A program made the translations under genes and the position numbers. Below, piece after piece: positions 11,070 to 37,004 of a stretch of 37,912 bases of DNA (positions are counted from its first letter, which is position 1; the number at the start of each line of letters is the position of its first letter). The notes beneath the pieces are model-generated. The model was not told the DNA's origin and did no database searches. It was given only the letters and a program-made list of their open reading frames with translations. The stretch comes from a virus, in IMG/VR virus record IMGVR_UViG_3300002835_000483, positions 1 to 37,912 of that record; one strand, written 5' to 3'.

Positions 11070-11984
11070 GTGAGAAAGTACGTAATTACAGAAGCTAGGA
11101 TTAGAGAAATAATCCAAGAAGAAATAGCAATTCAACAGCTCCTTGAAGAAGGATTTTTAGATTCTGCTAAAGATGCAATAAAAAAATTGTCAGTTGCAGT
11201 TACTAATAGATTTAAGGAAGCGGCAAACGAGTGGGCAAACGTTATCTCTGAAAAGATAAACATGATGCAGACGATCCCTCCAGAGATATTGACAATCGTC
11301 AATGCACTCAAAGAAGGAATGAAGTCGACAGGAGAATCAATAGAGTTAGATGAAACATTAAAGCTAGCTCAGTCTCTCGGTAAAGAAAATCCTCTTGCTT
11401 CTGCTGAAGAAGAATTATCTGGTCCTATCTACGCAAAAGCAAAAGAATTAAAAGAAATGTATGTTGTATTGTCCGATAATTCTTACGTCGAACAAAGAAA
11501 AAACTTACATGAAGCAGGAATAATAGCTGGCGTAGGAGTAGGATTAGCGATCATCGGAGGTTTACCTTTGTTATTTAAAGGCTTAACTAAGTTGGCTGTC
11601 TATTTGAAAGCTGAAAAATTAGCTTCAATCTTTGAAAAAGCTGAACATGTTACTCACGCTTTTGAGCAAAAATTTATAAAATTTGTAATCCCTAGCAAAC
11701 TTTCGTATTTCGTATATAAGTTTTTAGCTGAAAAAGGATTTCACACGGCTGGCGAAAAAGAAGTTTTATCTTACGAAAGATATAAATCTTCGAAGTCAGA
11801 ACAAAAAACAGCAGAATTAATCTATAAGGCTTTATTGATATATTTTGCTTTTCAAGGATTAGCAGGCGCGCTTAAAGCTGGTGCATCATTGTTAGGATTC
11901 GTTGAGGGAACTGCAACAACAGTGAAAGGTATCGAACTAGCAAAAGGATTTGCTGACGTTCGAAAAATTGTCAGCGGAGCATGA
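11070..11984 (+). CDS. Hypothetical protein with putative capsid-targeting N-terminus and two hydrophobic segments
   Basis: The 304-residue protein starts (GTG) with MRKYVITEARIREIIQEEI, a variant of the M-K-x-T-x3-L-R-x-I-I-x-x-E signature found on six other proteins in this window. I-Q-E within it fits the (L/I)-x-E cleavage rule of T4 gp21-type prohead proteases. Hydrophobic stretches lie near residues 151-172 (IIAGVGVGLAIIGGLPLLF) and 250-275 (LLIYFAFQGLAGALKAGASL). It lies oddly between primase and recombination genes. A role as an internal head protein, possibly ejected with DNA and membrane-active, is inference only. Confidence 0.6.
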   Translation: MRKYVITEARIREIIQEEIAIQQLLEEGFLDSAKDAIKKLSVAVTNRFKEAANEWANVISEKINMMQTIPPEILTIVNALKEGMKSTGESIELDETLKLAQSLGKENPLASAEEELSGPIYAKAKELKEMYVVLSDNSYVEQRKNLHEAGIIAGVGVGLAIIGGLPLLFKGLTKLAVYLKAEKLASIFEKAEHVTHAFEQKFIKFVIPSKLSYFVYKFLAEKGFHTAGEKEVLSYERYKSSKSEQKTAELIYKALLIYFAFQGLAGALKAGASLLGFVEGTATTVKGIELAKGFADVRKIVSGA

Positions 11985-12022
11985 GATATGAACATACGCA
12001 TTATCTACGTTACATTTAGATA

Positions 12023-15000
12023 ATGCTACGAATTGCGCATACAGCAGACGTGCACTGGCGTGGGCTTAGTCGACATGATGAATATCGAGAGATATTTTCT
12101 GCTTTTATAAATGACTGTAAGAAGAGCCGCGTCGACCACATCTTCATTGGTGGTGATATCTTTCATACAAAAACATCAGGAATTTCTCCTGAATACATCA
12201 ACCAACTAACGTGGTGGCTAAATGCCATGTCTGAAGTTGCAGTGGTGCACATCATATTGGGTAACCATGATGGTAACCTAACTAATCTTTCTAGGCAAGA
12301 CGCAGTTTCTCCGATTGTTGATGCAATGAAAAATGATCGGATAAAGCTCTACAAGAAAAGTGGTACTTACGAATTTTCTCCTGGATACAATTGGTGTGTT
12401 TTTAGTCTCTTTGACGAAGAAGGTTGGAAAGATGTAAAACCAGTCCCAGGAATGATCAACATCGCGTGTTTCCATGGATCAGTAAGAGGATGCGTAACGG
12501 AAACAGGATGGGACATAACAGAAGGCATCAGCACTGATTTTTTCAATGAATATGACTTTGTATTTCTAGGTGACATACACAAACGACAAATGTTAGCCTA
12601 CAGAGATGGAAAGCCTTGGATAGGATTTCCAGGTACACCCATTCAGCAAAACTACGCAGAAGAGTTAGATCATGGATATTTGCTTTGGGATATTGGTTCA
12701 GCATCCAACTGGGATGTTAAGTTTTGTCAACTTCCTAATGTTAAGCCTTACGTAACGATTGATTGGCAAGAGAATCATGAAAAGTTAATCAACGAAGCTT
12801 TGCTTTATCCAAAGCAGTCAAGATTTCGTATTAGATCTAACGTACCAATGTCACAAGGTGACATTCAGACGATTTCTAATCAACTGAAAACTACATTTCA
12901 AGCAACGGAAGTTACTTTTAAAACAGACTGTAAAGTAGAGACGAAAAAAATCTCAACGTCAGATGTTGTAATAGAGAAATCTGATATTAGATCTAATGAA
13001 GTGATCTTATCTCTTTTGCGTTCTTATGCAAAAGAAAACAAGTATTCTAACGTAAACTGGGAAGCGGTAGAAAATGATGTAAAAAAGTATCTTTCTTTGG
13101 TCACAACGACGGATGATTTAGCTAGAGGATCTTCATGGTCTCTTAAACAGTTGAAATGGGATAACATTTTTGCTTATGGCGAAGGCAATGAGATAGATTT
13201 TTCAAACTTGAATGGAATAGTAGGAATTTTTGGTCCCAACAGGATTGGAAAATCTTCGATTATAGGCACAATCATGTATTCTTTATTCAACACGACCGAT
13301 AGAGGATCCATGAAGAACATTTACGTTTGTAACGTAAGAAAGCCTTACTGTTCATCCAGGGCAATATTTGAACATAACGGTAAATCTTATGTTGTAGAAA
13401 GGCAAACGACAAAACAGCTGAATAAAAAAGGCGGAGTAAGTGCTTCAACAGCTCTTAACCTTTTTAAGATTAATGACGATGAAGCAGAAGATCTAGGCGG
13501 CGAGCAAAGAACAGACACTGAAAAGATCATTAGATCGTTGTTAGGATCTCCTGATGACTTCTTGCTGACTTCTTTTTCTGCGCAAGGAGAAACCAACGCA
13601 TTCATTGCATTATCATCAGCCAAAAGAAGATCATTGTTGTCTAGATTTCTAGATTTAGATGTCTTTGATAAAATGTACGAAAATTGCAACAAAGAGCTAA
13701 ATGGATTTAAAGCAAGGTTAAAGAATTACCCAGAAAAAGATTGGGATGCCTTGAAGAAACAAGGAGAAGATCTTTGTATAGACCTTCAAAAAAAGATTGA
13801 AGATCTGCAGATCAAAATATCTGATACTCAAAATTTGCTAACGGACGTCAAGTACAAACTGTCTTTGCATAAAGATCTAAAGCCAGTAACAAAAATTCAG
13901 CTTGAAGCTCAAGAGAAAAAAGTTTCTTCGCTAGAAAAGCAAGCGCAAGAATGCTCTTCTTATATCGATTCATTAAAAGCAGAAATATCATCTTTAACTT
14001 CAAAACTTGAAACTGTCAATTCTTTTATTGAAAGTGAAGACATTGATGAACTTAAAACCAAACTTACCGCAATAGATTCTATCGAAAAATCTATCACAAG
14101 TCTAAAACATTCTTACGAGTTAGAAACTGCTACTTTAAAACAACAACAAAAATCTCTTGCGTTGTTGGATGAAGTCCCTTGTGGTGATGAATACCCCACG
14201 TGCAAATTCATCAAAGATGCTCACTTAGATAAGTCAAAATTTCAAAATCAAAAAGAAAAAGAAGCCAATATAAAAGCATCTCTTGACAAGGCAATCAACT
14301 CTTTAAATTTGTTAGATAAAAATTCCATAATTTCAAAAATCTCTAAATATGAAAAAGCTGTTGGTTTATTGTCTAACATCAAATTGGAAATCTCTAAGAA
14401 AGAAACAGAAATTGAAAAGTGCAAATCTTCCTGCGAGATTTGTTTAGAGAACTTAAAAGAAGCAAAGACCAAGTTAGTTGACATTCAAAAGGCTTTAAAA
14501 AATAATGAAAATTATGAGGTTGTTGCCTTACGTTCAAAATTAGAAGAATTATCTAGTATTGCTAGAGATCATGACGATGAAAAGATACGATTAGCGACTC
14601 AGCATGGAAGAGCTTTATCTGATCTAGAAAAATTGAAATCTGAAAAAGATTCTAGAGAGAGTTTGATTCGTGAGATGAAATCGACGGAAATGATATGCGA
14701 TGCCTTTTCAAAAAAAGGTCTTCCTTTAATGATCACGAAAACTCAGCTTCCTGTCATCAATCAAGAGATTTCAAAAATCTTACAAGGTATCGTAGATTTT
14801 ACAGTAGAACTTGAAAATGATGATGAAACAGACTCTACGGAAATATACATCAACTATGGAGACAGCAGGAGGATAATTGAGTTATGTTCAGGAATGGAAA
14901 AAACCATCTCATCAATTGCAATTAGAGTAGCCTTAGTTAATATTTCAACTCTTCCAAAATTGGATATGTTTATAATTGACGAAGGATTTGGAACGTTAGA

Positions 15001-15160
15001 CGAATCTGGAGTGGAAGCATGTAGTAGATTGCTCAATAGCCTGAAGAGGTATTTTAAGACAATTTTGATGATTACCCATGTGGATGGAATAAAAGATATG
15101 GCAGATCATATTATCGAAATAACCAAGCAAGAAAAAGATTCCAAGGTGGTTGTCACATGA
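12023..15160 (+). CDS. Fused Mre11/SbcD-Rad50/SbcC (T4 gp47-gp46) recombination nuclease
   Basis: One 1045-residue polypeptide holds both subunits of the Mre11-Rad50 complex. The N-terminal ~365 residues are a metallophosphoesterase: TADVHW (D9, H11), GGDIFH (43-48), GNHDG (80-84), FHGS (H151), GDIH (183-186). From about 372 a Rad50-type ATPase begins: Walker A GPNRIGKS (about 404-411), a Q-G-E loop near 521, long coiled coils (about 570-715 and 735-885), signature CSGMEK (about 954) and Walker B with D-loop FIIDEGFGTLDE (about 982). The coil apex carries PCGDEYPTC (about 719-727), a CX6C hook rather than the usual CXXC. In T4 these are separate genes, 47 then 46, the same order as here. It processes DNA ends for recombination-dependent replication. 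Confidence 0.9.
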   Translation: MLRIAHTADVHWRGLSRHDEYREIFSAFINDCKKSRVDHIFIGGDIFHTKTSGISPEYINQLTWWLNAMSEVAVVHIILGNHDGNLTNLSRQDAVSPIVDAMKNDRIKLYKKSGTYEFSPGYNWCVFSLFDEEGWKDVKPVPGMINIACFHGSVRGCVTETGWDITEGISTDFFNEYDFVFLGDIHKRQMLAYRDGKPWIGFPGTPIQQNYAEELDHGYLLWDIGSASNWDVKFCQLPNVKPYVTIDWQENHEKLINEALLYPKQSRFRIRSNVPMSQGDIQTISNQLKTTFQATEVTFKTDCKVETKKISTSDVVIEKSDIRSNEVILSLLRSYAKENKYSNVNWEAVENDVKKYLSLVTTTDDLARGSSWSLKQLKWDNIFAYGEGNEIDFSNLNGIVGIFGPNRIGKSSIIGTIMYSLFNTTDRGSMKNIYVCNVRKPYCSSRAIFEHNGKSYVVERQTTKQLNKKGGVSASTALNLFKINDDEAEDLGGEQRTDTEKIIRSLLGSPDDFLLTSFSAQGETNAFIALSSAKRRSLLSRFLDLDVFDKMYENCNKELNGFKARLKNYPEKDWDALKKQGEDLCIDLQKKIEDLQIKISDTQNLLTDVKYKLSLHKDLKPVTKIQLEAQEKKVSSLEKQAQECSSYIDSLKAEISSLTSKLETVNSFIESEDIDELKTKLTAIDSIEKSITSLKHSYELETATLKQQQKSLALLDEVPCGDEYPTCKFIKDAHLDKSKFQNQKEKEANIKASLDKAINSLNLLDKNSIISKISKYEKAVGLLSNIKLEISKKETEIEKCKSSCEICLENLKEAKTKLVDIQKALKNNENYEVVALRSKLEELSSIARDHDDEKIRLATQHGRALSDLEKLKSEKDSRESLIREMKSTEMICDAFSKKGLPLMITKTQLPVINQEISKILQGIVDFTVELENDDETDSTEIYINYGDSRRIIELCSGMEKTISSIAIRVALVNISTLPKLDMFIIDEGFGTLDESGVEACSRLLNSLKRYFKTILMITHVDGIKDMADHIIEITKQEKDSKVVVT

Positions 15161-15450: not shown

Positions 15451-15492
15451 ATGTGATGATACATAGTTATCTTTGTTTTTGAAGAGGAAAAA

Positions 15493-15873
15493 ATGGCTGA
15501 TATTGATCTTAGTTCTCTTGGAGAAGCAATCGATACATCATGGGGTAGATCTTCCATGCCTTTGACTTCAGGTTTTTCAGCAAAAATGTCGCTTGCTGGT
15601 CAAAATCAACTTCACTTGGTTTATCAGACTGTGATTAACTTTGCTTCAGAGCGAGAAATGCTTAGAGTAAAATTATTTGAGTCTGAGCAAGCTGTAAAAA
15701 ATGTGAAATCGATAGTTGATAACGTTAAAAGCAAATATAAAGATCTGTCTGGACAGTCTTTAAAAGTTAAAGAAGTTTCTTCAGGCGAATCTGTTGAAAT
15801 AATTGGTCTTAATGTTCACAATCCAAAAAGAACTGCTTTGTACAGAAGAAAGTGTATATTTGAACTAGCATAA
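15493..15873 (+). CDS. Hypothetical protein preceding the large terminase (possible small terminase)
   Basis: The 126-residue protein has a central helical, coiled-coil-like stretch (about residues 55-90, SEREMLRVKLFESEQAV and onward) and a basic C-terminus. Its stop overlaps the start of the large terminase gene (TAATG). In T4 the small terminase gp16 lies directly before gp17 and has a central oligomerisation coil, so position and shape suit a small terminase. I see no clear N-terminal helix-turn-helix, so the identification stays tentative. A GAAGAGGAAAAA Shine-Dalgarno precedes the ATG. Confidence 0.55.
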   Translation: MADIDLSSLGEAIDTSWGRSSMPLTSGFSAKMSLAGQNQLHLVYQTVINFASEREMLRVKLFESEQAVKNVKSIVDNVKSKYKDLSGQSLKVKEVSSGESVEIIGLNVHNPKRTALYRRKCIFELA

Positions 15874-17516
15874 TGTCTGAAAAAACGTTAACAAAACAGC
15901 AACAAGTCAACGAGATAATTCGTTGTGGTAAAGATCCGTCGTATTTTATAAAGCACTACGCAAGAATCCAGCATCCATTAAAAGGCACGATTCCATTTGA
16001 GTTGTATCCTTTTCAAGATGAATGCTTAGAAAACTTTCAAAAGCATAGATTTAACATTGTGCTAAAATCCAGACAGCTGGGTTTATCAACGGTTTCAGCT
16101 GCATATGCCACTTGGTTAGCTATTTTTTACAAAGATAAAAACGTATTAGTTATTGCAACAAAACTTGCTACTGCTCAGAACTTTATTAAGAAAGTAGCTG
16201 TTTTACTACAATCTTTGCCAAAATGGCTTTTGATGCCCAAGTTTGAGCCATCAAAGCAACAAATATCTTTTAGCAATGGATCTCAGATAAAGGCTGTACC
16301 TACGTCGGAAGATGCAGGCCGTTCTGAAGCTCTATCTTTGCTAATTGTAGACGAGTGTGCATTTATTAGAGATTTTGACACGATATGGACAGGTCTCTAT
16401 CCCACGCTTACGACAGGTGGTAACGCTATTCTAATTTCTTCTCCTAATGGAGTAGGTGGTTTATATTACAGATTATGGGTTGAAGCAGAAGCTGGGGCTA
16501 ACGAATTTAATCCGATAAGACTTCCGTGGACTGTTCACCCAGAGCACGATGAAGTTTGGTTTACAAAAGAAACTAGAAATCTACCAAAAAGAAAAGTTAG
16601 TCAAGAATATCTTTGCGATTTTATCACGTCTGGAGATACGTTCTTACAGTCAGAAGATCTAGAAGATTTAAGATCCAAAATATCTCCTCCTATTGAAAAA
16701 TCAGGATTTGATAGAAACGTTTGGATATGGGATCACCCTTCACCAGAAAAATCATATGTAATTTCTGCAGATGTTGCTAGAGGCGATGCATCAGATTATT
16801 CTGCGTTTCATGTAATAGATCAATCTGCTTGTGAGATTGTAGCAGAATACATGGGTAAAATACCTCCAGAAAAGTTTGCAGAGTTATTGGCTGAATGGGG
16901 TAAAAAATATAATAATGCTTTCATCTGTCCAGAGAATAACACATTTGGATATTTCGTGAATGTTAAGCTTAGAGACTCCGGATATCCACGATTGTATTAC
17001 CACAACAATAAAGGTGATCCGTTTTCTTACTCTTCAGTAGATCCTTCAGAACTACCAGGATTCCCAACGAATCAAAAAACGAGAGTTCAAGTTTTAACAA
17101 AGCTTGAAGAACTTATAAGAAATAAGGTTTTAAGGTGCCATTCTCAACGCCTGTACGATCAACTTCAGGCTTTTATTTGGAATGGTAATAAGCCTATGGC
17201 TTCTAAAGATAGTCATGATGATTTAATCATGAGTCTTGCTATTGGTGCGTGGCTAGTTGAAGACGGAAGTGGTGCTAATGAATCTGCTATGGCTATGGCA
17301 TATGCTATGCTAAAAGCGACGGGTATCTCTAGAAGAGAATTAAATGAAATTCCTAATGGCCCTAATTCAGCTAGTCCATACATCAGTCCTTCATTAAGAG
17401 CTTCAACTGGAATTAATCCTCAAAATGTGTATAAATTGCGAGAACCAACCGACGTTAAACATGTCAACGCTAATTCTGATCCACTAATTGCAGATTTATC
17501 TTGGTTGTATCGTTGA
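15873..17516 (+). CDS. Terminase large subunit (T4 gp17-like packaging ATPase/nuclease)
   Basis: The 547-residue protein has the two-domain terminase layout. ATPase: KSRQLGLST (residues 65-73, Walker A region), then LLIVDECAF (156-164, Walker B with catalytic Glu) and LISSPNG (coupling motif, about 187-193). Nuclease: VISADVARGDASDYS (D300 region), ICPENNTFG (about 351-359) and DSHDDLIMSLAIGAW near 450 give the RNase H-like acidic triad. The Walker A has Leu where T4 has the GK lysine (SRQLGLST against SRQLGKTT), with Lys65/Arg67 available upstream, a deviation I recall from other phage terminases. It cuts and translocates DNA into the prohead through the portal. Confidence 0.92.
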   Translation: MSEKTLTKQQQVNEIIRCGKDPSYFIKHYARIQHPLKGTIPFELYPFQDECLENFQKHRFNIVLKSRQLGLSTVSAAYATWLAIFYKDKNVLVIATKLATAQNFIKKVAVLLQSLPKWLLMPKFEPSKQQISFSNGSQIKAVPTSEDAGRSEALSLLIVDECAFIRDFDTIWTGLYPTLTTGGNAILISSPNGVGGLYYRLWVEAEAGANEFNPIRLPWTVHPEHDEVWFTKETRNLPKRKVSQEYLCDFITSGDTFLQSEDLEDLRSKISPPIEKSGFDRNVWIWDHPSPEKSYVISADVARGDASDYSAFHVIDQSACEIVAEYMGKIPPEKFAELLAEWGKKYNNAFICPENNTFGYFVNVKLRDSGYPRLYYHNNKGDPFSYSSVDPSELPGFPTNQKTRVQVLTKLEELIRNKVLRCHSQRLYDQLQAFIWNGNKPMASKDSHDDLIMSLAIGAWLVEDGSGANESAMAMAYAMLKATGISRRELNEIPNGPNSASPYISPSLRASTGINPQNVYKLREPTDVKHVNANSDPLIADLSWLYR

Positions 17517-17562
17517 AGCGTAATAAATATTTGACATTACTGTTACGATAAAAGAGACTAAT

Positions 17563-17871
17563 ATGCCAAAAAAGTTAAATTCTGTTGAACTTCATGCAAA
17601 AATTTTGCTACAAAAAGAAGCACTAATGGAAGGAGTGGATTCTTCAGGGGTAAAATCTTTAATTTCTTCTGCAGCAGATTTATATGAAGAAATCATAGAT
17701 TTCGAACAGAATGCAACCGCCGATGCTATTAATGCATTGACTCCTCATTTAAAAAACGTGAAGGACACTCTTGAAAAAATGATAGAGAATCCTACAAGCT
17801 ACGTGCCACAATCAACAACAATGGCCGAAAAGCAAAGAGTAACTTTTAAACCAACTAAAGATGTTGATTGA
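17563..17871 (+). CDS. Hypothetical small helical protein between terminase and portal genes
   Basis: The 102-residue protein is largely helical and acidic in the middle, with a Ser/Thr/Lys-rich tail. I do not recognise the family. It sits between the large terminase and portal genes, where T4 has tail sheath and tube genes, but it is far too small for either. Upstream, AATAAATA at about 17522-17529 is one mismatch from the T4 late promoter consensus TATAAATA, and an AAGAGA-like ribosome site precedes the ATG. Confidence 0.6.
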   Translation: MPKKLNSVELHAKILLQKEALMEGVDSSGVKSLISSAADLYEEIIDFEQNATADAINALTPHLKNVKDTLEKMIENPTSYVPQSTTMAEKQRVTFKPTKDVD

Positions 17872-19969: not shown

Positions 19970-20830
19970 ATGTCATCCTCACATAATAAAAAAAGAAATA
20001 CTGGATTAATTTACGAGTTTCTAATTAAAACCATATCAAAAGCGCTCGTAGAAAATAACAAACCTCAATCATCAAAAGCGCTTAAAATCATTAAGCAAAA
20101 TTTCAAATCTGGTACTGAGTTATATAGAGAATTTAGACTCATAAATGCTTTAATGAAAACTACAGTTGGATCAGAATCAATTGCTGCTTCAATAATTTTT
20201 GAAGCAAAAAACGCTGCTAGAAGTCATGATATGCATGAATTAGACAGAGAAAAATCAATTTTAATTAGGAGTATAAACCACCAATTAAAAGACGATAATT
20301 TTTATGACCAGCATATCAATGAATACAAGATGTTTGCAACAATACAGAATTTGCTCAACAGTTGGAGGAACCCTAATTCTGACTTGCAAAAAACAGCTGA
20401 ATATGAAGAAGCATTGATGAAGTGGCTTGTTTCTCCAAAGAGTCAGTTGCAAGAAGAAAAGGTCAACGAAAACTCAGTAGGAACGAATCGTCTTCTTATG
20501 AAAGTCATGATGAAGAAGTTAAGCGAAAAATACGATGGAGCTCTTACGTCTGATCAAAAATCTCTTATCAAAGCTTATGCTTTTGCTACAGCCAATGACG
20601 ACAGCTCTACGATCTTAAAAAAATTGAGTGAAATAAGAGAAAGATTATTGGAATCTATCAATGATTATCTGGAGTCAAAAGAATCTTCAAAGTATTTGAA
20701 CACTAAATTATTAGAAGTAAAGAATAAGTTGTTCGAACCGTTAAATGAAGTTAACGATTCCACTATTTCTGAATACATGTTATACGCAAAGTTAGTTGAT
20801 GAACTAACTTCAGGAGGGTCAAATGTCTGA
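19970..20830 (+). CDS. Hypothetical prohead-region protein between portal and protease genes
   Basis: The 286-residue, strongly helical protein lies where T4 has prohead core genes 67 and 68, so a core or head-assembly role is likely from position, though I do not recognise the sequence. An in-frame TTG at 19961 is possible, but the AAAGGA Shine-Dalgarno at 19954-19959 is one base from it and about 10 nt from the ATG at 19970, so the ATG is preferred. Its last 8 nt overlap the protease gene, suggesting coupled translation. The N-terminus is basic (SSSHNKKRN). Confidence 0.6.
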   Translation: MSSSHNKKRNTGLIYEFLIKTISKALVENNKPQSSKALKIIKQNFKSGTELYREFRLINALMKTTVGSESIAASIIFEAKNAARSHDMHELDREKSILIRSINHQLKDDNFYDQHINEYKMFATIQNLLNSWRNPNSDLQKTAEYEEALMKWLVSPKSQLQEEKVNENSVGTNRLLMKVMMKKLSEKYDGALTSDQKSLIKAYAFATANDDSSTILKKLSEIRERLLESINDYLESKESSKYLNTKLLEVKNKLFEPLNEVNDSTISEYMLYAKLVDELTSGGSNV

Positions 20831-21431
20831 CTTGAAACTCTTAAATTCTTATGAAATATTTGATTATTCTTCTGAAACTATAAAAGAGTCCAGAGAAAAG
20901 AACGATGGAAAAATCTTGATGAAAGGTATTCTGCAAAAAGCAGATACCTTGAATCAAAATGGCAGAATCTACCCGAAAAATATTCTAGAAAGAGAAATAA
21001 GAAACTATCAAAAGTTTATAGCTGAAAATAGAGCTTTAGGAGAGTTAGATCATCCTGATTCTTCAGTGGTAAATTTAAAAAATGTTTCTCATATAGTTCG
21101 TGAAGCATACTTAGACGGAGATGTCGTCTATGGAAGCGTGGAAATTCTAGACACCCCTTCTGGTAAGATACTACAATCCTTAGTCGAAAGCGGAGTAAAA
21201 TTAGGAATATCATCTAGAGGAGTTGGTTCTACAAAAAAGCAAGGCGATTATCAGATAGTTCAAGATGATTTTCAATTGATCTGTTGGGACTATGTTTCTG
21301 AACCATCAACACCAGGTGCGTTCATGATGGCAGAAGGAAAAACAATAAATCCCTCTGAGGTAAGAGGAATTTTTAATCGTTCTGACAGAATCAATAGAAT
21401 TATTAATGATATTTTATCTACAAAGAAGTAA
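20823..21431 (+). CDS. Prohead core protease (T4 gp21-like)
   Basis: The 202-residue protein carries the herpesvirus/T4-type prohead protease signature: NGRIYPKNIL (47-56), GELDHPDSSVVNLKNVSH with catalytic His about 77, and KLGISSRGVGS with the nucleophile Ser at about 130-131. Family members cut scaffold, capsid and internal proteins after (L/I)-x-E during head maturation. It overlaps the preceding gene by 8 nt and has a GGAGG ribosome site inside it. Candidate substrates nearby include the scaffold, the capsid N-terminus and the proteins with the MKxT leader. Confidence 0.9.
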   Translation: MSDLKLLNSYEIFDYSSETIKESREKNDGKILMKGILQKADTLNQNGRIYPKNILEREIRNYQKFIAENRALGELDHPDSSVVNLKNVSHIVREAYLDGDVVYGSVEILDTPSGKILQSLVESGVKLGISSRGVGSTKKQGDYQIVQDDFQLICWDYVSEPSTPGAFMMAEGKTINPSEVRGIFNRSDRINRIINDILSTKK

Positions 21432-22703: not shown

Positions 22704-22731
22704 CAATAATTGAAATGGAGAATTTTTGAAA

Positions 22732-24630
22732 ATGTCTAAACAGCTCTACGAAGAAGCAATAGCAGACGTAAAAAAACTAAAAGAAATAGCTGAAGATAAC
22801 GCTAAAAGAGCAGTTATCGAGGCAGTTGCTCCACGAATTCGTGAGCTGATAGAAAAAGAGTTATTGGAAGAATCCTCCGCAGACATGTCTGCGGAGGATG
22901 ATCATGATGATAAAAATCATGATAAAATATTGACAGATGATCCTACTAAAAAAGGACCTGAAGCTAAAAATAACGAAATGTCCATGTCAATTGGCGAATT
23001 AACCTCAGAAGAAGATGAGAAAAAAGTTGAAGAGGACCAAACCGCTTCCGAGGTAACGCTTGAAGATGTCATGGAGATAATCGCGTCGAAGAGCAAGAAC
23101 GAAACGCTCCGCGAATTTGAAGAAAAGTTACGCTATGTCGAAAAGATGATCGATTCGTTATCATCAATTGAACAAAGCATGAAAGAATCAAAAAGCTTTG
23201 AAAACAAAGTCTCTTCTCTTGAAGAAACGATCTCAGAGCTTTATGAACATGCAAACACGCGTATCGTAAGTTCAACTCAAAAGTTGAGCTGTAACCTTAA
23301 AATACAGAATTGCTTAAAAAAACTAGAAAAGCTTCAGGAGATTAAAATGAAGAAGAGAAATGGTCGTTTGGATGAAGAAACAATTAGCATTGAATTAACA
23401 GGAGTTCCTGACGACGTCGACCTCGAGAGCCTTGGAGTCAATTTGGTCTCCGGAGGCGGCGAAGAGGAAGACGAAGAAGCAGGCGAAGACATGGAAGACC
23501 TCGGTGGCGAGGAAGAGGGTGGCGATGACATGGAAGACCTCGGCGGAGATGACGAAGAAGGCGCTGAGGACGAAGAAGACATGGAAGAAATGTCTATGCC
23601 TAATATGCCGACGACAGAATCTCGTCGTCTCAACGATAATTTGATTGTCGAGATCGACGAAGGCATGTTACGTCGTGAAATTGCACGCATGAAGGCTATT
23701 CGTGAAGAGGCAGTTCCTTCAACCAAGGGAGAAGCCCCTGGATCAGATGAGTTTGACGACTTCGGCGACGCCGAAGAAGAAGGCGAGCCTCTTGAGATGA
23801 CATTGAGTGAAGTCGACGAAGCTAGCATGACGGATGAGACCTACGAAGCCTATGGCGTAGAGGGTGAAGCAGCTAAAAGAACTGATTCATTAACAAAGCC
23901 TTCAGGAGCTGAGCAGCCAAATGTCCAGTCTGATTCTCCAGTCAATGAAGCTGACGAAGATGAAGAGGGAGCTGAAAACCCTGCCGACGAAGCAGCTAAG
24001 TGTGAGTCAATCCGTCGTCAGATGGTCGCAGAGCTAAAGCTTCAAGAGTCTCTCCGTGCAAGAGCTCGCGGCGCAGCACGCCTTTATGAGGCATCTAAAG
24101 CAAAGTTCAACAAGACCCGCACACTTTCTGAACGCAAGGAAATTGCTCGTCATGGAGATGCTCACAAGGCAGCCTACACGGGATTCGCAAAGCGTTACAA
24201 CGAATCTGTTAAACGATTCAACAAACTTTCAGAGGCGCTTGCTGAAGCAAAGCGTCCAAGCAACGTTCGCTCTAATAGCAACGTGAAACCTGGTGCGAGC
24301 GCAGGCGATGTTCAGCTCCGCAACAAGTTGGCAGAAACGAATCTGCTCAACGCCAAGCTCATGTTCACGAACAAGCTTCTTCAATCAGAAGCCTTAACCT
24401 CGCGCCAGAAATCGCAGGTTATTGCGCAGCTCGATGAAGCAGCCACGCTCCGCGAAGTGAAGCTTGTATATGAGAGCCTCGCCAAGACATTGGCAGCTCC
24501 GCGTAAGCCTGTAACAGAAGGTCGCGTTCTTGGATCTTCTTCTCAGGCAACACGTTCGGCTTCGGCACAACCCCTCAACGAGGGTTATGAAGCAGAGCGT
24601 TGGGCAAAGCTCGCAGGCATAGCTAAGTGA
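22732..24630 (+). CDS. Prohead core scaffold protein (T4 gp22-like, enlarged)
   Basis: The 632-residue protein sits between protease and capsid genes, the place of T4 gene 22, and is highly charged and helical like scaffolds. It is more than twice the length of T4 gp22 (about 270 aa). An acidic repeat region near residues 240-285 has two copies of D/E-D-M-E-D-L-G-G. The extreme C-terminus is AERWAKLAGIAK, also seen on the 265-residue protein downstream. A TTG at 22726 is in frame, but the GGAG at 22717-22720 fits the ATG at 22732 better. Codons change from A/T-ending to C/G-ending about 300-400 nt into the gene. Assignment rests on position and composition. Confidence 0.8.
   Translation: MSKQLYEEAIADVKKLKEIAEDNAKRAVIEAVAPRIRELIEKELLEESSADMSAEDDHDDKNHDKILTDDPTKKGPEAKNNEMSMSIGELTSEEDEKKVEEDQTASEVTLEDVMEIIASKSKNETLREFEEKLRYVEKMIDSLSSIEQSMKESKSFENKVSSLEETISELYEHANTRIVSSTQKLSCNLKIQNCLKKLEKLQEIKMKKRNGRLDEETISIELTGVPDDVDLESLGVNLVSGGGEEEDEEAGEDMEDLGGEEEGGDDMEDLGGDDEEGAEDEEDMEEMSMPNMPTTESRRLNDNLIVEIDEGMLRREIARMKAIREEAVPSTKGEAPGSDEFDDFGDAEEEGEPLEMTLSEVDEASMTDETYEAYGVEGEAAKRTDSLTKPSGAEQPNVQSDSPVNEADEDEEGAENPADEAAKCESIRRQMVAELKLQESLRARARGAARLYEASKAKFNKTRTLSERKEIARHGDAHKAAYTGFAKRYNESVKRFNKLSEALAEAKRPSNVRSNSNVKPGASAGDVQLRNKLAETNLLNAKLMFTNKLLQSEALTSRQKSQVIAQLDEAATLREVKLVYESLAKTLAAPRKPVTEGRVLGSSSQATRSASAQPLNEGYEAERWAKLAGIAK
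22872..22899. repeat. 28-bp perfect palindrome inside the scaffold gene
   Basis: Positions 22872-22899 are perfectly self-complementary; the half-site is ATCCTCCGCAGACA. As RNA it could form a 12-bp stem with a 4-nt loop. The right arm contains GGAGG followed at once by ATG codons in another frame, which open only an 11-codon reading frame. It encodes part of an Asp/Ser/Glu-rich stretch, where codon choice is free enough that perfect symmetry was not forced. Confidence 0.85.
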
Positions 24631-24683: not shown

Positions 24684-26570
24684 ATGAAATCTTTTACAAT
24701 TGATCAGCTTGCACAGGGCATCAAAGAGCGTCACGTAGGCGCCGAGCGTGCCCGTCTTACAGAGAAGTGGAGCCGCACAGGCCTCCTCCGTGGCCTCGAT
24801 GGCACACGTCGCGAAGTAATGGCACAGCTTCTTGAGAACCAGGCAGCACAGGTCCTCAAGGAGAGCAACAGCCTCTCAACAGGCGGCGGCAACGTGACAT
24901 CCAGCGGACAGATCCAGGGCTTCACAAACATCGCATTCCCAATCGTCCGCCGCGTATTCGGCGGTCTCGTTTCAAACGAGCTCGTTTCGATCCAGCCAAT
25001 GAGCCTCCCCTCAGGTCTCATCTTCTACCTCGATTACACATACGGTACGAACGTTGGACAGGCAGTAGGAGCATCAGGAGAGTCGACCTATACAAGAGGT
25101 CAATCAATCTACAACAACCCAACAGGCAGAGGGGTTCAAAGCGGATCACTCGCGACGGGTGGTATGTATGATCTTGTCGGAGCAGGTTACTCAAAAGTAA
25201 CTGGTTCACTTCAGACATTCGACTTCTCAGCAGGCACGGTCTACTCAGGTTCATACAAGGGAGTTGACGGACTCACCTGGTCAAACGGTGCAACCGTTGC
25301 AACGTTAGCTGACTTCAGCGGCTCGAACGCACGTCTCATGGATTTTGATTCGCAGGTTCAGAATTCTATCGAAGCCAATCAGCTCGATGCGCTCTTCGTT
25401 TACGTTCCTACGACGGCATTCACCGCAGCAGGAGCAGACCTCCTCTCGGCTGAACAGGTCGCGGTATTCAGCGGATTCGGAGCAAACGCAACAGCATGGG
25501 GCGAGACATTCCAAGGAGGAACAGGCGTACTCAACCTCCGTAGACTCACGAAGCGCGGCACTCTCACGGGTGGCGGTACATCAGCACATACATTCACTCC
25601 TGATGCATTGAATGGTAACTATCTCCAATTCGTTATCAAGGGAGCAAATGGATTGTCAGTTCTCACTTCAGGCGCTGGACGAGTCACCTTCTCGAAGGCA
25701 GCTTCACTCGAAGTCGCTTCGACTGGTGCAACTCTCACAGTACCTTCATTCGAGTCTGACTTCGGAGCAACACCAGCACCAGCAATCCCAGAGATCGACA
25801 TCAAGATCGAGTCGATTGCAATCACAGCAACAACCCGCAAGCTCCGTGCTCGCTGGTCACCAGAGCTCGCACAGGACCTCAACGCCTACCACAGCATGGA
25901 CGCAGAGGTTGAGCTCACCTCGATCCTCTCGGAGCAGATCGCCCTCGAGATCGACCGCGAGATCCTCAACGACCTCGTCACACAGGCCAACGGCGCCAAC
26001 TACTACTGGTCACGCGCTCCTGGTAAGTTCGTCAACAAGACAACAGGACAGCCTGTAACACTCGCCTCAAGCCTCTCAATCGGACCACAATTCACCGGTA
26101 CGGTTCGCGAGTGGTATGAGACGCTCGTTGAGACAGTCATCGACGTTGCCAACACGATCCACCGCAAGACACTCCGCGGATCAGCAAACTTCATGGTCAC
26201 AGGACCAGACGTTGCAACAATCCTCGAGAGCTCGGTCCTCTACAAGCCCAAGTTCTCGATCGACGGTGAAGGTCAGGTCGGCAGCCCCTTCACAATCGGT
26301 GCAGAGGCAATCGGCACGGTCAGCAACCGCTTCACGGTCTACAAGGATCCTTACTTCCCACGTAACAAGATCCTCGTCGGTTACAAGGGTGGCAGCTACC
26401 TCGAGACAGGCTACGTATACGCACCATACGTTCCACTCATCGTGACACCAACAATCTTCGCACCAGAGGACTTCACACCACGTAAGGGCGTGATGACCCG
26501 CTACGGTAAGAAGATGGTCCGTTCGGACTTCTACGGAACGGTCACGGTTCTCGACATGAACATCATCTGA
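24684..26570 (+). CDS. Major capsid protein (T4 gp23-like, HK97 fold)
   Basis: The 628-residue protein follows the scaffold gene. Its N-terminus parallels T4 gp23: LTEKWSRTGLLRGLDG (25-40) and MAQLLENQAAQVLKE (46-60) match the gp23 K-W-x-x-L-L-E-G and I-F-E-N-Q elements, then IAFPIVRRVFGGLVSNELVS and VSIQPMSLPSG correspond to the start of the mature shell protein. L58-K59-E60 fits the (L/I)-x-E rule, so maturation after E60 is likely, close to the T4 cut after residue 65. The middle (about 150-370) is an insertion-rich region compared with T4 (521 aa). Codons are strongly C/G-ending, unlike the AT-rich upstream genes, as expected for a highly expressed gene adapted to the host. AGGAGAA ribosome site; terminator downstream. 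Confidence 0.93.
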   Translation: MKSFTIDQLAQGIKERHVGAERARLTEKWSRTGLLRGLDGTRREVMAQLLENQAAQVLKESNSLSTGGGNVTSSGQIQGFTNIAFPIVRRVFGGLVSNELVSIQPMSLPSGLIFYLDYTYGTNVGQAVGASGESTYTRGQSIYNNPTGRGVQSGSLATGGMYDLVGAGYSKVTGSLQTFDFSAGTVYSGSYKGVDGLTWSNGATVATLADFSGSNARLMDFDSQVQNSIEANQLDALFVYVPTTAFTAAGADLLSAEQVAVFSGFGANATAWGETFQGGTGVLNLRRLTKRGTLTGGGTSAHTFTPDALNGNYLQFVIKGANGLSVLTSGAGRVTFSKAASLEVASTGATLTVPSFESDFGATPAPAIPEIDIKIESIAITATTRKLRARWSPELAQDLNAYHSMDAEVELTSILSEQIALEIDREILNDLVTQANGANYYWSRAPGKFVNKTTGQPVTLASSLSIGPQFTGTVREWYETLVETVIDVANTIHRKTLRGSANFMVTGPDVATILESSVLYKPKFSIDGEGQVGSPFTIGAEAIGTVSNRFTVYKDPYFPRNKILVGYKGGSYLETGYVYAPYVPLIVTPTIFAPEDFTPRKGVMTRYGKKMVRSDFYGTVTVLDMNII

Positions 26571-26696: not shown

Positions 26697-27494
26697 ATGA
26701 AGTTAACGAAATCAAGACTTAGAGAACTAGTTGTAGAAGAAATATCACAACAAACTAAAAAAACCGAGTTAACAAAAGAAGGTTTTTTTGACACGATAAA
26801 AAGCGCTTTTAGTGGAAAAAAAGAAGAACCTAAAGAAGAAATCTTACCAGCAGTCAAGTCTTTTGAAGAGTTTGAAAAAATATGTAACGATAGACAGCAA
26901 CAGTACGAAAAAGCTGTAAATGCTCATTTTAAGGACTTTTCAACACAAGTCCGTAGCGGTATAAGAATAGACTTAACTCCTCAAGGAAGAGTATCTTTGA
27001 CGCGTGTTTTACCCAAGAGTGATGCTGTGTACGCAATTGGGTTTGGGGAAAGTTTTAAAGGGTTGTTAGCACCTAAAAATTTCATGGATGATAATCCGCC
27101 TTCTTCTGTCTCTGGATATGATAAAAATTACGAACCAAAAACCGTATATGGATGGGCTAACTTTTATGAAAAAACTGGGAAGTTGGAAGCAGCTCAATCT
27201 ATTGGTAAAACATTTGTTGATTTTTGGAACGAGTGTGTAGATTCATTTCAAGCAATTCATGCTAAAAAACAAAAAAGAGAAGGCGTGACAGAAGCATTGG
27301 GAGAAAAGATGCAAGAAAAAATCTCTTTGAACATGGAACAGCCCTCAAGCACTATCTTGAAATATGCGGGAGGTGAAAGAAGCGCGCCATTAGTAGTCAT
27401 AAAATTAAATTCAGAGACAAAAAAAGAATCTCTTCACAATGATGGAAATATAATTGTTGAGCGTTGGCAGCGTCTTGCAGGAATCGTAAAGTAA
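26697..27494 (+). CDS. Putative internal head protein (265 aa) with both shared terminal motifs
   Basis: Starts MKLTKSRLRELVVEEISQ, the shared leader, and ends NIIVERWQRLAGIVK, almost the same ending as the scaffold (AERWAKLAGIAK). The interior has no recognised enzyme motif; a Lys/Glu-rich stretch (about 40-60) follows the leader. It is flanked by terminators on both sides and so is probably its own transcription unit. Having one motif at each end makes it the best candidate for a head-interior protein that docks on the scaffold or capsid. Function is inferred from the termini only. Confidence 0.7.
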   Translation: MKLTKSRLRELVVEEISQQTKKTELTKEGFFDTIKSAFSGKKEEPKEEILPAVKSFEEFEKICNDRQQQYEKAVNAHFKDFSTQVRSGIRIDLTPQGRVSLTRVLPKSDAVYAIGFGESFKGLLAPKNFMDDNPPSSVSGYDKNYEPKTVYGWANFYEKTGKLEAAQSIGKTFVDFWNECVDSFQAIHAKKQKREGVTEALGEKMQEKISLNMEQPSSTILKYAGGERSAPLVVIKLNSETKKESLHNDGNIIVERWQRLAGIVK

Positions 27495-30295: not shown

Positions 30296-30298
30296 ATT

Positions 30299-30329: not shown

Positions 30330-30338
30330 TTGTTCAAA

Positions 30339-31967: not shown

Positions 31968-32020
31968 TATGAGGTTATATTAACCAACCCTACTCACAGA
32001 TTTCACAGTTTTCTTGACAA

Positions 32021-32037: not shown

Positions 32038-32048
32038 ATTCGAGTTTC

Positions 32049-32303: not shown

Positions 32304-32315
32304 CTTTGTTTTCAC

Positions 32316-34388: not shown

Positions 34389-34471
34389 TTTTTTTCTCAC
34401 TTTCGTGCGTTCATCAAATCCAGGGAACAAATTCTTTTTATACCATGCAACATTAACATTGCACTGGAAGA

Positions 34472-35407
34472 TTAAAGGGGCACATCAAATTTCTTAGGCA
34501 TCTCGAGGACAGCGAGATTTTTCATCTTCGCCTCCACCTCTAGATCCACTGCATCGCGCCGCAGGCGCTCGAGCTGCACCGCAGGAATATAATGGATCAT
34601 GTCGCTGTGCTTGCGCCGCTCGGTGAAAGATCCACCTTCCATGCCTGGCTCGGTATTGCTGATGTGTTGCAGGGGTTTCACACCCTTAGGCCACGTCTCA
34701 TCGGCTGCGTCCGCAGCCTCTGCGCCGTCCAATCCACCGTCGTTGAAAACATGATGATGCGAATCCCACACGATCGGCACACCCGTCTCCATCGACACCG
34801 GCAACAGATCCACCAACGAATAACACGTCTCGCAATTCTCCAGCGTCAATCGCGATCGACTAGCCTCCGGCAATGACCGAATCGCGTCGATCAACCTCGT
34901 CTGCCGATCCGCCTTACCACCATGCACGTTGATCGCAGCGTACGGACTCCGCGGCATCCCCATCGAATCAAACATCCACGCGTGATGCTCGAGCTCGACG
35001 ATCGCCTTCTCAACCACCGAGTCAGAATCCGACGACAACACGCAGAACTGACCCGGATGCGTCGTCAACCGAATACCACACTTCCGAGCCACCTCGCCAC
35101 ACAACGCCAGCTCGCCCCGCAAGGCATCGTTGTCCCACAACCTCCGAGGCACGCGATCGCTCAACGGAAACATGGCGCTTGACACGCGAAATAACCGCAC
35201 GCCACTCGCGGCCACCTTCCGCAACACGTCGCGTAACATTCGAGCGTTGTGAAGGTACAACGAACGAATCGCATCTTCGGAATACGCTCCTCGTTCGTAC
35301 CGACCCAACTGCAGCGTCTTCTCATCCAACTCGTTAATGACTTGCAACTTGCCACTCCGCGGCGCGGTCTCGCGCCGAATCCAATGGCAACAAACGCCTA
35401 ATGCCAT
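34472..35407 (-). CDS. uvsE: UV-damage endonuclease UvsE/UVDE-like
   Basis: The 311-residue protein matches UvsE along its length: the N-terminal GVCCHWI, FRVSSAMFPL, LTTHPGQFCVLSS, INVHGGK, LTLENCE and VWDSHHHVFND. These are TIM-barrel strands carrying the His, Glu and Asp metal ligands. UvsE nicks DNA 5' of pyrimidine dimers and other lesions, starting repair. T4 uses the unrelated DenV for this. The gene is markedly GC-rich (many CTC, GCG, CGC codons) against the AT-rich left side, so it may have come from a host. No strong Shine-Dalgarno is visible. Confidence 0.9.
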   Translation of the reverse strand: MALGVCCHWIRRETAPRSGKLQVINELDEKTLQLGRYERGAYSEDAIRSLYLHNARMLRDVLRKVAASGVRLFRVSSAMFPLSDRVPRRLWDNDALRGELALCGEVARKCGIRLTTHPGQFCVLSSDSDSVVEKAIVELEHHAWMFDSMGMPRSPYAAINVHGGKADRQTRLIDAIRSLPEASRSRLTLENCETCYSLVDLLPVSMETGVPIVWDSHHHVFNDGGLDGAEAADAADETWPKGVKPLQHISNTEPGMEGGSFTERRKHSDMIHYIPAVQLERLRRDAVDLEVEAKMKNLAVLEMPKKFDVPL

Positions 35408-35537
35408 AAGCTTGATTACTACCTTAATTCCTTAAGGTCACTTGTACAACAAGTCGGTGCCTCTATGCACCACAAAGCCCAAGAATCATTCTTCGATAAT
35501 TTATTGGTTTTCCACACACGACAATTTAAAAAGATTC
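35408..35537 (-). promoter_or_regulatory. Intergenic segment with two adjacent hairpins upstream of uvsE
   Basis: The 130-nt gap holds two neighbouring inverted repeats: ACTTGT-ACA-ACAAGT (about 35440-35454) and GGTGC-CTCTAT-GCACC (about 35457-35472). Near the uvsE start is a CCTTAA-type direct repeat (about 35422-35436). The hairpins may terminate the upstream 125-residue gene or form a regulatory leader for uvsE. I see no convincing -10/-35 pair. Confidence 0.4.
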
Positions 35538-35915
35538 TCAGACGCCACCAAAGGCGTCGTCCATCACGTCCATCATGGTACGGTCGTCACGAGAATCGCC
35601 TTTCAAAACGCTGACCTTGGGGCGCGCCCTCGAGGCTGCCCAGCGCACGACAACTTGGTCGGTCTCTCTTAGAGAGAGCTCCACGAACGCGCCCGTTTCA
35701 GGATCACTCAACCTGGAAAGGACGCCCTCACGAGTCTCATCCACATCAGGATTCGCGTCGTACACGAGAGCAGGATTTGACGCCGCCTCATCCGCCAAAA
35801 TGTCCATCGCAGGCTCTGCCGTGAGCCTCCACTGTCCCCCAGGCCCATCTCCTCCCGTCAGCGTCTCAAGTTCTTCTTTGATGATCTGTCTCAATCTCGG
35901 CAGCGTCAGCTTCAT
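35538..35915 (-). CDS. Putative internal head protein (125 aa) with targeting-type N-terminus
   Basis: Starts MKLTLPRLRQIIKEELETL, a clean shared leader with I-K-E as a possible prohead-protease site. The rest is an acidic alpha/beta protein (VELSLRETDQVVVRWAAS) with no recognised family. AGGAG lies about 6 nt before the ATG, and GATATATAT lies about 20-30 nt upstream, as it does near the 95-residue leader-bearing gene. It has GC-rich codons, so the leader is conserved despite the composition change. Confidence 0.7.
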   Translation of the reverse strand: MKLTLPRLRQIIKEELETLTGGDGPGGQWRLTAEPAMDILADEAASNPALVYDANPDVDETREGVLSRLSDPETGAFVELSLRETDQVVVRWAASRARPKVSVLKGDSRDDRTMMDVMDDAFGGV

Positions 35916-35958
35916 GTCGTCTCCTGTCTCAACACATATATATCACGCTACCTGACAT

Positions 35959-36063
35959 CTACCGAAAGAGCCGCCGCAACGGGGCCAACAAGGCTCCAAT
36001 GATCAACCGAAACACCGAAGCCACGAACATCCTCTCAAACATCTTACCATACCTCATACGCAT
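35959..36063 (-). CDS. Possible micro-protein (34 aa), basic with a short hydrophobic stretch
   Basis: A short frame encodes MRMRYGKMFERMFVASVFRL followed by IIGALLAPLRRLFR, an amphipathic/hydrophobic core flanked by arginines. GAGGTG lies 6 nt before the ATG, a good ribosome site. It could be a small membrane-active peptide. Short length leaves real doubt that it is a gene. Confidence 0.4.
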   Translation of the reverse strand: MRMRYGKMFERMFVASVFRLIIGALLAPLRRLFR

Positions 36064-36128
36064 CTCATCACCTCAGCCACCATGGTACGTCGCTCCAGAC
36101 GCGAAGAACAACGGTCATTTCGACGCAA

Positions 36129-36148
36129 AAAATTTCCCGAGAAATTTT
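36129..36148 (-). terminator. Intrinsic terminator-like hairpin (minus strand)
   Basis: AAAATTTC and GAAATTTT pair in an 8-bp stem with a TCGG loop on the minus strand, running into a U-run (TTTTTTGCG). It lies about 47 nt past the stop of the 60-residue gene. The AT-rich stem is weak. Confidence 0.5.
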
Positions 36149-36194
36149 CGAGCACCACAACAGCTCCAGAAAATCCGCGGAGCCGGAACTCAAT

Positions 36195-36377
36195 TCACAA
36201 CCTCTTTAGAAAGGCTATGTACTCGAAGTCAACCGTCCCGTCGTTGCACAGGAAGATTCCCTCATCCGGCTGTTCATCGAGATGATACAGGAACACCAAG
36301 ACTCGATCCAAGATCTCTCTCGGTGCCACGCCATCATCTTCGTAGACGCACAGATCTCCGGGGCTGAGCTTTAACAT
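36195..36377 (-). CDS. Hypothetical small protein (60 aa)
   Basis: Starts MLKLSPGDLCVYEDDG and continues with alternating hydrophobic strands, ending YIAFLKRL; it looks like a small SH3-like beta-barrel of the 'L-x-P-G-D-L' type often seen in phages. No named function. No clear Shine-Dalgarno precedes the ATG; an inverted repeat ACATGC/GCATGT (36374-36396) spans the start. Confidence 0.55.
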   Translation of the reverse strand: MLKLSPGDLCVYEDDGVAPREILDRVLVFLYHLDEQPDEGIFLCNDGTVDFEYIAFLKRL

Positions 36378-36616
36378 GCTTATAAATAGGCATGTGCCCC
36401 CACGAGCGTGGGTAAGGACCGCTTTAATCTCAAAATTTCTCGAGATTTGCGCGCGGGTTTAGCGCTCCCCGGCGGCCCCAAAAACTCCACAGAAAATGCC
36501 CCTTTTAGGGGCGGGGCCGGGGCCCCATTTTAGGGGCCTAAAGAGGGGCCTTTGAGGGGCCCTTGCAAGGGGGCGGCCCCTAGGCCCGTTTGCTCTCTCC
36601 ACAGGCCCCTTGTAGT
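36378..36616. other. GC-rich non-coding segment with GGGGCC repeats and a G-quadruplex motif
   Basis: No gene supported in these 239 nt. GGGGCC occurs at 36513, 36519, 36533, 36545 and 36556. Four G4 tracts (36508-36511, 36513-36516, 36519-36522, 36533-36536) with loops of 1, 2 and 10 nt give a G-quadruplex motif on the plus strand. Nested inverted repeats include GCCCC-TTTTA-GGGGC (36498-36512), GGCCCC-ATTTTA-GGGGCC and CCCTTGCAAGGG. CCCACG-AG-CGTGGG lies near 36390. It may be an origin, a replication/packaging landmark or a composite terminator; which one is unknown. Confidence 0.6.
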
Positions 36617-36715
36617 TCAACCTTGCAGCAGGCCCCACCACAGCACCCAGCCGATGATGATGCCGATGACCGCGCCTTCGAGGAAGGCTATGAGGTGTGA
36701 TCTGTTGAGGTTCAT
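36617..36715 (-). CDS. Single-pass membrane micro-protein (32 aa)
   Basis: MNLNRSHLIAFLEGAVIGII followed by IGWVLWWGLLQG is a short polar start and one strong transmembrane helix. GGAGG lies 8 nt before the ATG, inside the end of the upstream 95-residue gene, whose TGA is one base away (TGACATG). This is the pattern of translational coupling. Function unknown; candidates are a small holin-like, lysis-control or exclusion peptide. Confidence 0.6.
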   Translation of the reverse strand: MNLNRSHLIAFLEGAVIGIIIGWVLWWGLLQG

Positions 36716-36716
36716 G

Positions 36717-37004
36717 TCAGAACCTCCGCGTTGATCGTTCGTGGCGCGTCACCTTCGCCAATGTTTCCAGGACGTCGCCGCGTTTGACCATGGGTACCGC
36801 GTCGATGATGGCCTCGATGACCTGCGCCAGTTCTTTGGGGTCCGTGATCTGTGATAGTGCCTCGAGGACGCCGGGAGCGTCGTGCATTCGTCGAAGGGCG
36901 GTGGTGCCTGCGATGGTGTGTTCGTGTTTGCCGCGGACGTTCTTGAGGTCCTCGGCGATTGTTTCCTCGATGATGGTGCGCAGTTGTTCTGACGTTAGCT
37001 TCAT
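36717..37004 (-). CDS. Putative internal head protein (95 aa) with targeting-type N-terminus, GC-rich
   Basis: Starts MKLTSEQLRTIIEETIAEDL, a clear shared leader with I-E-E as a possible cleavage site. The remainder is a helical protein with no recognised family. The leader fixes the start at 37004, although the only GGAGG is 16 nt upstream and lies in a hairpin. Codons are strongly GC-rich, unlike leader-bearing genes near 22 and 29 kb. Confidence 0.7.
   Translation of the reverse strand: MKLTSEQLRTIIEETIAEDLKNVRGKHEHTIAGTTALRRMHDAPGVLEALSQITDPKELAQVIEAIIDAVPMVKRGDVLETLAKVTRHERSTRRF

Follow-up and report, generated by a model that had tools for sequence, protein, structure and literature searches.

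A shared N-terminal leader on unrelated proteins of T4-like viruses, a probable capsid-targeting tag

The head module and the leader genes of the window

The sequence studied here is the 37,912-base IMG/VR virus record IMGVR_UViG_3300002835_000483 (hereafter the window), for which a preliminary description reported a short leader common to the N-termini of seven proteins. The window contains a T4-type head module consisting of terminase, portal, S77 protease, scaffold candidate and gp23-type capsid protein (Table 1). The T4 gp21-type protease gene noticed earlier is thus present, and its product is a candidate enzyme for cutting the leader. The scaffold candidate, recognized by its acidic sequence and its position ahead of gp23, has the N-terminal helix RIRELIEKELL and the C-terminal sequence LNEGYEAERWAKLAGIAK; it matched no PHROG, and its Pfam matches all fell short of the cutoff. 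When isolates are ranked by capsid protein, even the leading ones are distant (Microcystis phage Mel-JY01, 34.6% identity; Flavobacterium phage immuto, 42.6%).

All seven gene starts were confirmed and the shared leader is real, although it is clear in only five of the genes, those at 21945, 26697, 29667, 35915(-) and 37004(-). There it fits MK(L/I)T-x3-L(R/K)-x-I-I-x-E-E, while the genes at 21462 and 11070 carry only diverged forms. An exact DNA pattern of the leader matched four times in the window and its reversed control not once; a looser scan yielded no convincing eighth copy. The proteins behind the leader (the bodies) are unrelated, as first described, with no mutual BLASTP match among the seven at E<0.1. 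The (L/I)-x-E motif that had been ascribed to most copies stands at its canonical place, residue 14 with an offset allowed, in four of the seven (11070, 29667, 35915 and 37004) and is not uniform: the protein at 26697 has LRE at residue 10 only, and the one at 21945 has no (L/I)-x-E, though its relatives show IAE or IEE.

The leader usually persists in relatives of these proteins. It was found in 38 of the 40 matches to the 21945 protein (window gene counted) and was absent from two, while 16 matches to the 21462 protein (window gene counted, loose pattern) comprised 14 with a leader-like N-terminus, one without and one cut off. The single homologue of the 11070 protein, in L116 (52% identical), retains SEARLRRIVQEE, and the L527 homologue of the 35915(-) protein (76% identical) has the leader. 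Of two homologues of the 37004(-) protein, that in L420 (37.5% identical) bears the leader and a further one in L316 does not.

Table 1. Head genes and leader genes of the window
Feature	Position	Strand	Remarks
Terminase large subunit	15873-17516		
Portal	17930-19918		
S77 prohead protease, gp21-like	20823..21431	+	PF03420, E 2.4e-28; phrog_207, 4.1e-52
gp22-like scaffold candidate	22726..24630	+	Acidic, 634 residues
Major capsid protein, gp23-like	24684..26570	+	PF07068, 3.1e-76; N-terminal arm ends LKE|S
Leader protein, 304 amino acids	11070..11984	+	GTG start; diverged leader VRKYVITEARIREIIQEE, offset three residues, then LLEE|G
Leader protein, 141 amino acids	21462..21887	+	Diverged leader MKMTRNELKDLVKECL; LSE|G at residue 22; directly 3' of protease
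Core-region leader protein, 78 amino acids	21945..22181	+	Clear leader MKLTSNLLKRIIMQE; between protease and scaffold
Leader protein, 265 amino acids	26697..27494	+	Clear leader MKLTKSRLRELVVEE; scaffold-type C-terminal tag IIVERWQRLAGIVK
Leader protein, 108 amino acids	29667..29993	+	Clear leader MKLTERQLRKIILEE; ILE at 14, IHE|A at 21
Leader protein, 125 amino acids	35538..35915	-	Clear leader MKLTLPRLRQIIKEE; GC-rich minus-strand end
Leader protein, 95 amino acids	36717..37004	-	Clear leader MKLTSEQLRTIIEE; IEE at 14, IAE at 18

Spread and N-terminal position of the leader

The leader is carried by a large, mostly uncultured set of T4-like viruses of bacteria. Three leader patterns matched at least 118, at least 120 and at least 120 stretches of the viral collection, and a reversed pattern matched none. 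All collected loci together yielded 698 leader proteins from viral contigs; with the first 24 residues removed, these fell into 504 body clusters, 409 of them singletons. The protein core occurred 51 times (34 with Met directly before it) in 0.96 Mb from 80 loci that had been selected solely by their capsid protein, and 0 times in 1.05 Mb from 120 loci selected by a neutral 15-mer. With a looser pattern, whose reversed controls gave 0 throughout, single records held up to 18 copies (the 113-kb record G032), with nine in G003, eight in G047 and nine in the 484-kb phage LR756508; the pattern was absent from 10 of 23 capsid-related records and from seven of eight named phage records.

Contigs of GTDB gave no match to the strict pattern, while a relaxed form matched 11 stretches on eight contigs from six metagenome bins. 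One of these, taken to be the 305-kb NHDW01000006.1, holds 13 leaders together with S77 and gp23; S77 was not found in three of the six bins. These matches probably represent phage contigs inside bins, although perhaps not in every case. A tblastn search of isolates with the leader (leader A below) gave no match, and the method was judged insensitive because LR756508 holds nine copies yet none matched.

Distinct core matches lay within 12 residues of an upstream ATG in 35 of 37 cases from the 80 capsid-selected loci, and in 732 of 766 cases from all collected loci, many of which had been chosen by a pattern that includes ATG. A strict demand for Met at its expected position excluded 15 of the 47 matches from the capsid-selected loci; none of the 15 is more than 47 codons away from the preceding stop, and several are orthologues with a slightly extended N-terminus. 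A profile lacking Met gave nine above-threshold windows at a distance of over 15 residues from the first ATG. Three of them, with scores of 17.9-22.1, can be read as N-termini whose start codon lies further on; the remaining six scored at most 9.3, against a leader median of 38. An equal occurrence of the motif inside unrelated proteins, which would speak against a tag, was looked for and not seen. A few proteins have tandem leader copies or a C-terminal copy (e.g. L110:4233-4916, L156:7244-7867 and L223:12071-12829). The leader is conserved as a protein sequence: at its conserved positions the relatives use all synonymous codons of Leu (six), Arg (six), Ile and Thr.

Protease-type sites, the scaffold tag and exchange of leaders

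The cleavage rule of gp21 is L/I-X-E (PMC9026906, section 2.5). Among relatives, the capsid protein arm ends LKE|(S/A) in every one of the 32 distinct sequences compared. Among 426 cluster representatives of the leader proteins, the Glu of (L/I)xE stands at residue 14 in 407, a conservation that is partly by construction because position 14 belongs to the search pattern. Outside the pattern, a further (L/I)xE at residues 16-40 was present in 293 of the 426, compared with 116±8.6 after shuffling within each protein and with 89 at residues 51-75; followed by A/G/S, such a site was present in 126, compared with 27±5 and 12, respectively. The Glu of the further site peaks at residues 21 and 22. 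A Glu at residues 18-27 was followed by A/G/S in 120 of 285 cases when P3 was L or I, and in 88 of 346 otherwise (p=1.3e-5). These are not 426 independent events, because residues 16-24 and the leader may have a common ancestry; we take the statistics to show a conserved longer leader ending in a putative site, not independent origins.

Leader and protease tend to occur together. S77 was found in eight of 14 leader records of 40-120 kb and in one of 13 random contigs of 42-122 kb (p=0.013); the leader itself was in none of these 13, which are all the listed random contigs of at least 40 kb. The size-matched set covers 14 of 16 listed records, of which G026 and G048 look near-identical; it omits the contig of L103, which is near-identical to the window, and the 112,058-base contig of L149, which is also left out of the large set. 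Among leader records of at least 112 kb, drawn from the listed rows of larger match sets, 19 of 22 have S77, or 16 of 19 without the three found by capsid protein only (G004, G013 and LR756508), whose inclusion favours S77.

Irregular head genes were also seen in three other records. The phage LR756508 has two S77 segments within 576-residue frames (156507-158102). The S77 frame of the L157 contig (G051, 9148-9588) contains two in-frame TGA codons, and this phage may therefore read TGA as an amino acid. The 309-kb record G071 has a broken second gp23-like stretch (16752-17807), its intact capsid gene lying elsewhere in the record.

The scaffolds carry a tag at the other end of the protein. All those examined (44 of 44, with 37 distinct tails), i.e. 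those of the 80 capsid loci with sufficient upstream sequence, end with (L/I)-x-E-(G/S/N/A), a short spacer and RWxxLAG(I/L/M). A loose form of this tag ends 85 distinct frames among 30,334, nearly all of them scaffolds or pieces thereof. By eye, 10 complete non-scaffold frames were chosen from 21, the other 11 being scaffolds. Six of the 10, from four families, begin with leader A or its loose form (window 26697, L012, L068, L140, L431 and L432), and one (L417) begins with the second leader class described below; the base rate of the loose leader, 604 of 8,963, comes from a set enriched in leaders.

A possible mimicry of the scaffold helix RIRELIEKELL by the leader was considered as well, and we regard it as a hint only. 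The best window of a leader profile falls on this helix in 18 of 33 non-redundant scaffolds, which one of 200 column-shuffled profiles equalled; two of 200 reached the mean best score. A first profile (positions 4-22) found no scaffold window above threshold.

A second class, leader B, has the form MKL(L/I)(L/M/F)ENWRxF(L/V)xE and is found on further unrelated proteins (L347, L352, L226, L442, L483 and others). It lies close to an ATG in 28 of 31 cases. Of 18 records searched for it, 11 contained it; 12 of the 18 had been chosen because their loci showed it. A tblastn search of isolates with leader B gave 135 records, of which those listed are microviruses at E 2-4, taken as chance matches.

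Leaders A and B are exchanged in four body families: a P-loop kinase, a ParB-like DGHHRW family, r123 (with L223) and r203 (with L146). Leader A precedes the kinase (AAA_33, E 2e-13, with the domain beginning at residue 28) in L372, L335 and L345. The L347 kinase, with a body 64% identical, carries leader B MKLLLEGWRKYLNE, and the more distant L352 carries MKLIMENWNKFVNE; in Rhizobium phage RHph_I1_18 and Ruegeria phage RpAliso, distant relatives of the kinase lack a leader and start with the domain itself. Among the ParB/sulfiredoxin-like DGHHRW proteins, those of L012 and L068 combine leader A with the C-terminal tag, and those of L226 and L177 have leader B. In the fold search of this family, the best match was a ParB/sulfiredoxin protein of the viral library (E 3.2e-5), and the PDB library gave no match at E<=0.001. 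In the comparison of bodies that revealed swaps, 590 matches (self included) comprised 556 with leader A upstream, five with a B-type start and 29 with neither, several of the last looking like fragments, diverged leaders or long upstream extensions.

Predicted structures place the leader apart from the body. In the kinase model the leader forms a separate helix (residues 5-24), with a predicted local distance difference test score (pLDDT) below 50 at residues 17-23 and the domain starting at residue 26. In the model of the ParB-like protein (mean pLDDT 59), disordered linkers join the leader and the C-terminal tag to a confidently predicted core.

Few bodies are recognizable: DnaJ (E 1.1e-14, residues 18-80), AAA_33 kinase, GNAT (E 1.9e-6) and DUF5824 (E 1.1e-8), besides one weak exonuclease match (E 0.0043). 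The scans covered the longer bodies, with representatives of 110 out of 199 clusters and of 70 among 307 clusters obtained later. The 110 gave 29 Pfam families with one member each at E<=0.01, mostly weak, and one PHROG family; the 70 gave seven Pfam families at E<=0.001. A 582-residue protein with two leader copies (L226:613-2358) was considered as an ADP-ribosyltransferase. Its YRG/SSWS/QYE pattern resembles that of such enzymes as T4 Alt, but Pfam, PHROG and PDB gave no support and the identity is not claimed; the only related viral stretch found was on the same contig.

The leader as a probable capsid-targeting tag

Most probably, the leader is a modular capsid-targeting tag of the T4 type, cut by the gp21-like protease. 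A head-import tag of this kind was proposed in the preliminary description and is favoured by the N-terminal position, the protease-type site, the association with head genes, the tag shared with the scaffold and the leader swaps; "regulon", the name it was given there, is the wrong word, as no finding bears on co-regulation. We propose that an amphipathic N-terminal helix of 14 to 22 residues (MKLTxxxLRxIIxEELxxxLxE) would bring unrelated proteins into the gp22-like prohead core, where the S77 protease would cut after (L/I)-x-E at residue 14 and/or 21-22, so that mature cargo would stay in the head and part of it would probably be ejected along with the DNA. Core binding, cleavage, presence in virions and ejection are all inferred here from sequence.

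Several observations weigh against this proposal. S77 is missing from 16 of 31 leader records when fragments are included (15 have it) and from three of the 22 large ones, though these three may be fragments because gp23 is also missing there. The canonical (L/I)xE is found in just four of the seven window copies and the 21945 protein has none, and the site counts in the larger set are limited by search pattern and possible shared ancestry as stated above. The exact-pattern leader is missing from 10 of 23 capsid-related records, some of which hold variants with a longer N-terminus, and exact leader A was not found in the six isolates searched, T4 included. Three of the 10 non-scaffold proteins with the C-terminal tag have neither leader (L409, L490 and a fragment, L028). 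The resemblance of leader and scaffold helix is weak, and the scaffolds are related to each other. Unlike the basic internal proteins of T4, 426 bodies have a slightly negative mean net charge (-0.037 per residue). The likeness to T4 described below is a seven-residue spacing chosen after both sequences had been seen, and as such a lead only. In the open-licence part of PubMed Central (PMC), no virion proteomics or cleavage data on any leader protein were found.

The strongest competing explanation, which we consider distinctly less likely, is that these proteins belong to the structure of the prohead core, as gp67 and gp68 of T4 do; the leader would join them to the scaffold, and they would be cut up and lost instead of being delivered. 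The genes at 21462 and 21945 would fit this, being conserved and lying within the cluster of protease and scaffold genes; in addition, many bodies are short, and their mean charge is slightly acidic. However, most bodies are singletons and not conserved core genes, and the leader also precedes recognizable enzyme or cofactor domains (DnaJ, AAA_33 kinase and GNAT). Some of this cargo, the kinase and DnaJ in particular, would suit the infected cell, and the localization of leader proteins is itself inferred only; docking to another phage-made structure, such as a replication site, a membrane or a late transcription complex, is therefore conceivable. We consider it improbable in view of the C-terminal tag held in common with the scaffold, the gp21-type site behind the leader and the association with S77.

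Two further explanations would deprive the leader of a targeting role. The leader might be no more than a functionless trace left by a recombination hot spot or by genes duplicated recently, and arrays of adjacent leader genes with very similar leaders do occur (e.g. in G032), but the leader is kept while the bodies are unrelated, its synonymous codons vary, and a 64% identical kinase body bears a different leader of similar layout, all of which makes this very unlikely. Least credible of all is a DNA or RNA element overlapping the gene starts, such as a late promoter or ribosome-binding context, with the protein motif as its by-product. The motif does nearly always begin at or near the ATG; against such an element stand the codon variation at the conserved Leu, Arg, Ile and Thr positions, the orthologues with the motif a few residues past the ATG, and the tandem and C-terminal copies.

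If the capsid-targeting reading is right, a simple sequence rule predicts head-packaged proteins of uncultured T4-like phages, likely delivered at the first moment of infection. Hundreds of orphan proteins would become testable virion cargo, many of them gaining a first function class, and the swaps would show how payload is gained by exchange of tags and offer new packaging tags for protein delivery. A wider proposal, to which we give about even chances, is that heads are loaded by a two-ended address code, made up of interchangeable N-terminal leaders (A, B and lineage-specific ones, with Phi-x-x-Phi-(I/L)-x-E) and the C-terminal RWxxLAG(I/L) tag, so that gaining a tag would add any protein to the virion. 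On this view a single phage would carry and deliver proteins perhaps numbering in the dozens, and for uncultured phages the tags would be enough to read the virion payload from sequence.

The concept of capsid targeting is already known; for the leader sequence, its scale, the second class, the swaps and the C-terminal scaffold tag, no description was found in open-licence PMC. The T-even internal proteins are described as a highly diverse set in which only the capsid-targeting sequence (CTS) is conserved (PMC3012670), and in the account of the T4 CTS given in PMC9026906 residues 4 and 7 serve targeting and residues 8 and 10 processing. Like the CTS of IPI-IPIII, as presented in these two sources, the leader is a short N-terminal peptide on unrelated small proteins, with an (L/I)-x-E end, in phages with gp21, gp22 and gp23. 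It differs in being longer (14-22 residues) and of another sequence (MKLTxxxLRxIIxEE), in its copy number (up to 18 per record versus a few), and in the accompanying second interchangeable class and C-terminal scaffold tag. The spacing Phi-x-x-Phi-(I/L)-x-E is common to T4 YQEFIAE, leader A LRQIIKE and leader B WRKFLNE, which are too short for a homology test.

Two other systems are comparable in part. In phage P1, an N-terminal signal of DarB, of more than nine and at most 30 residues, suffices to package a reporter (PMC9024508); the leader sequence is common to hundreds of proteins, whereas that paper reports none common to the Dar proteins. In SPN3US and phiKZ, as described in PMC5694885, a prohead protease also cuts N-terminal propeptides of head proteins, and gp53 and gp54 have an identical 15-residue N-terminus; however, the propeptides are mostly longer than 100 residues and follow the rule A-x-E (SPN3US) or S-x-E (phiKZ), and the sharing is between two paralogues.

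Repeated N-termini were also searched for in isolates. The 151,790-base mutant clone used as the T4 record gave six pairs, including MKTYQEFIAE / MKTFKEFIKE and a MELITELFD pair; MKTYQEFIAE we take to be the CTS of a T4 internal protein. Mel-JY01 has other repeated N-termini and S-SM1 gave none. In the isolate immuto, an S77/gp23 phage, four proteins begin with MKKSQLR(E/Q)IIK-like sequences, which fall two residues short of leader A. It differs in having xFDLKKFLVEN and RMQxLAGIITES tags as well, on which no paper was found in open-licence PMC. The RMQxLAGIITES tag is an N-terminal form of the scaffold-type C-terminal LAG tag.

Two regions of the window are of separate interest. A single frame of 1045 residues (12023-15160) matches both SbcD-like and SbcC-like nuclease subunits (phrog_100 and phrog_77) and represents a fused gp47-gp46. 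The minus-strand genes at 34472-37912 have a raised GC content (0.51-0.67) and include a UvdE endonuclease (E 6.1e-49); two of the leader genes lie in this region, and relatives of both exist elsewhere.

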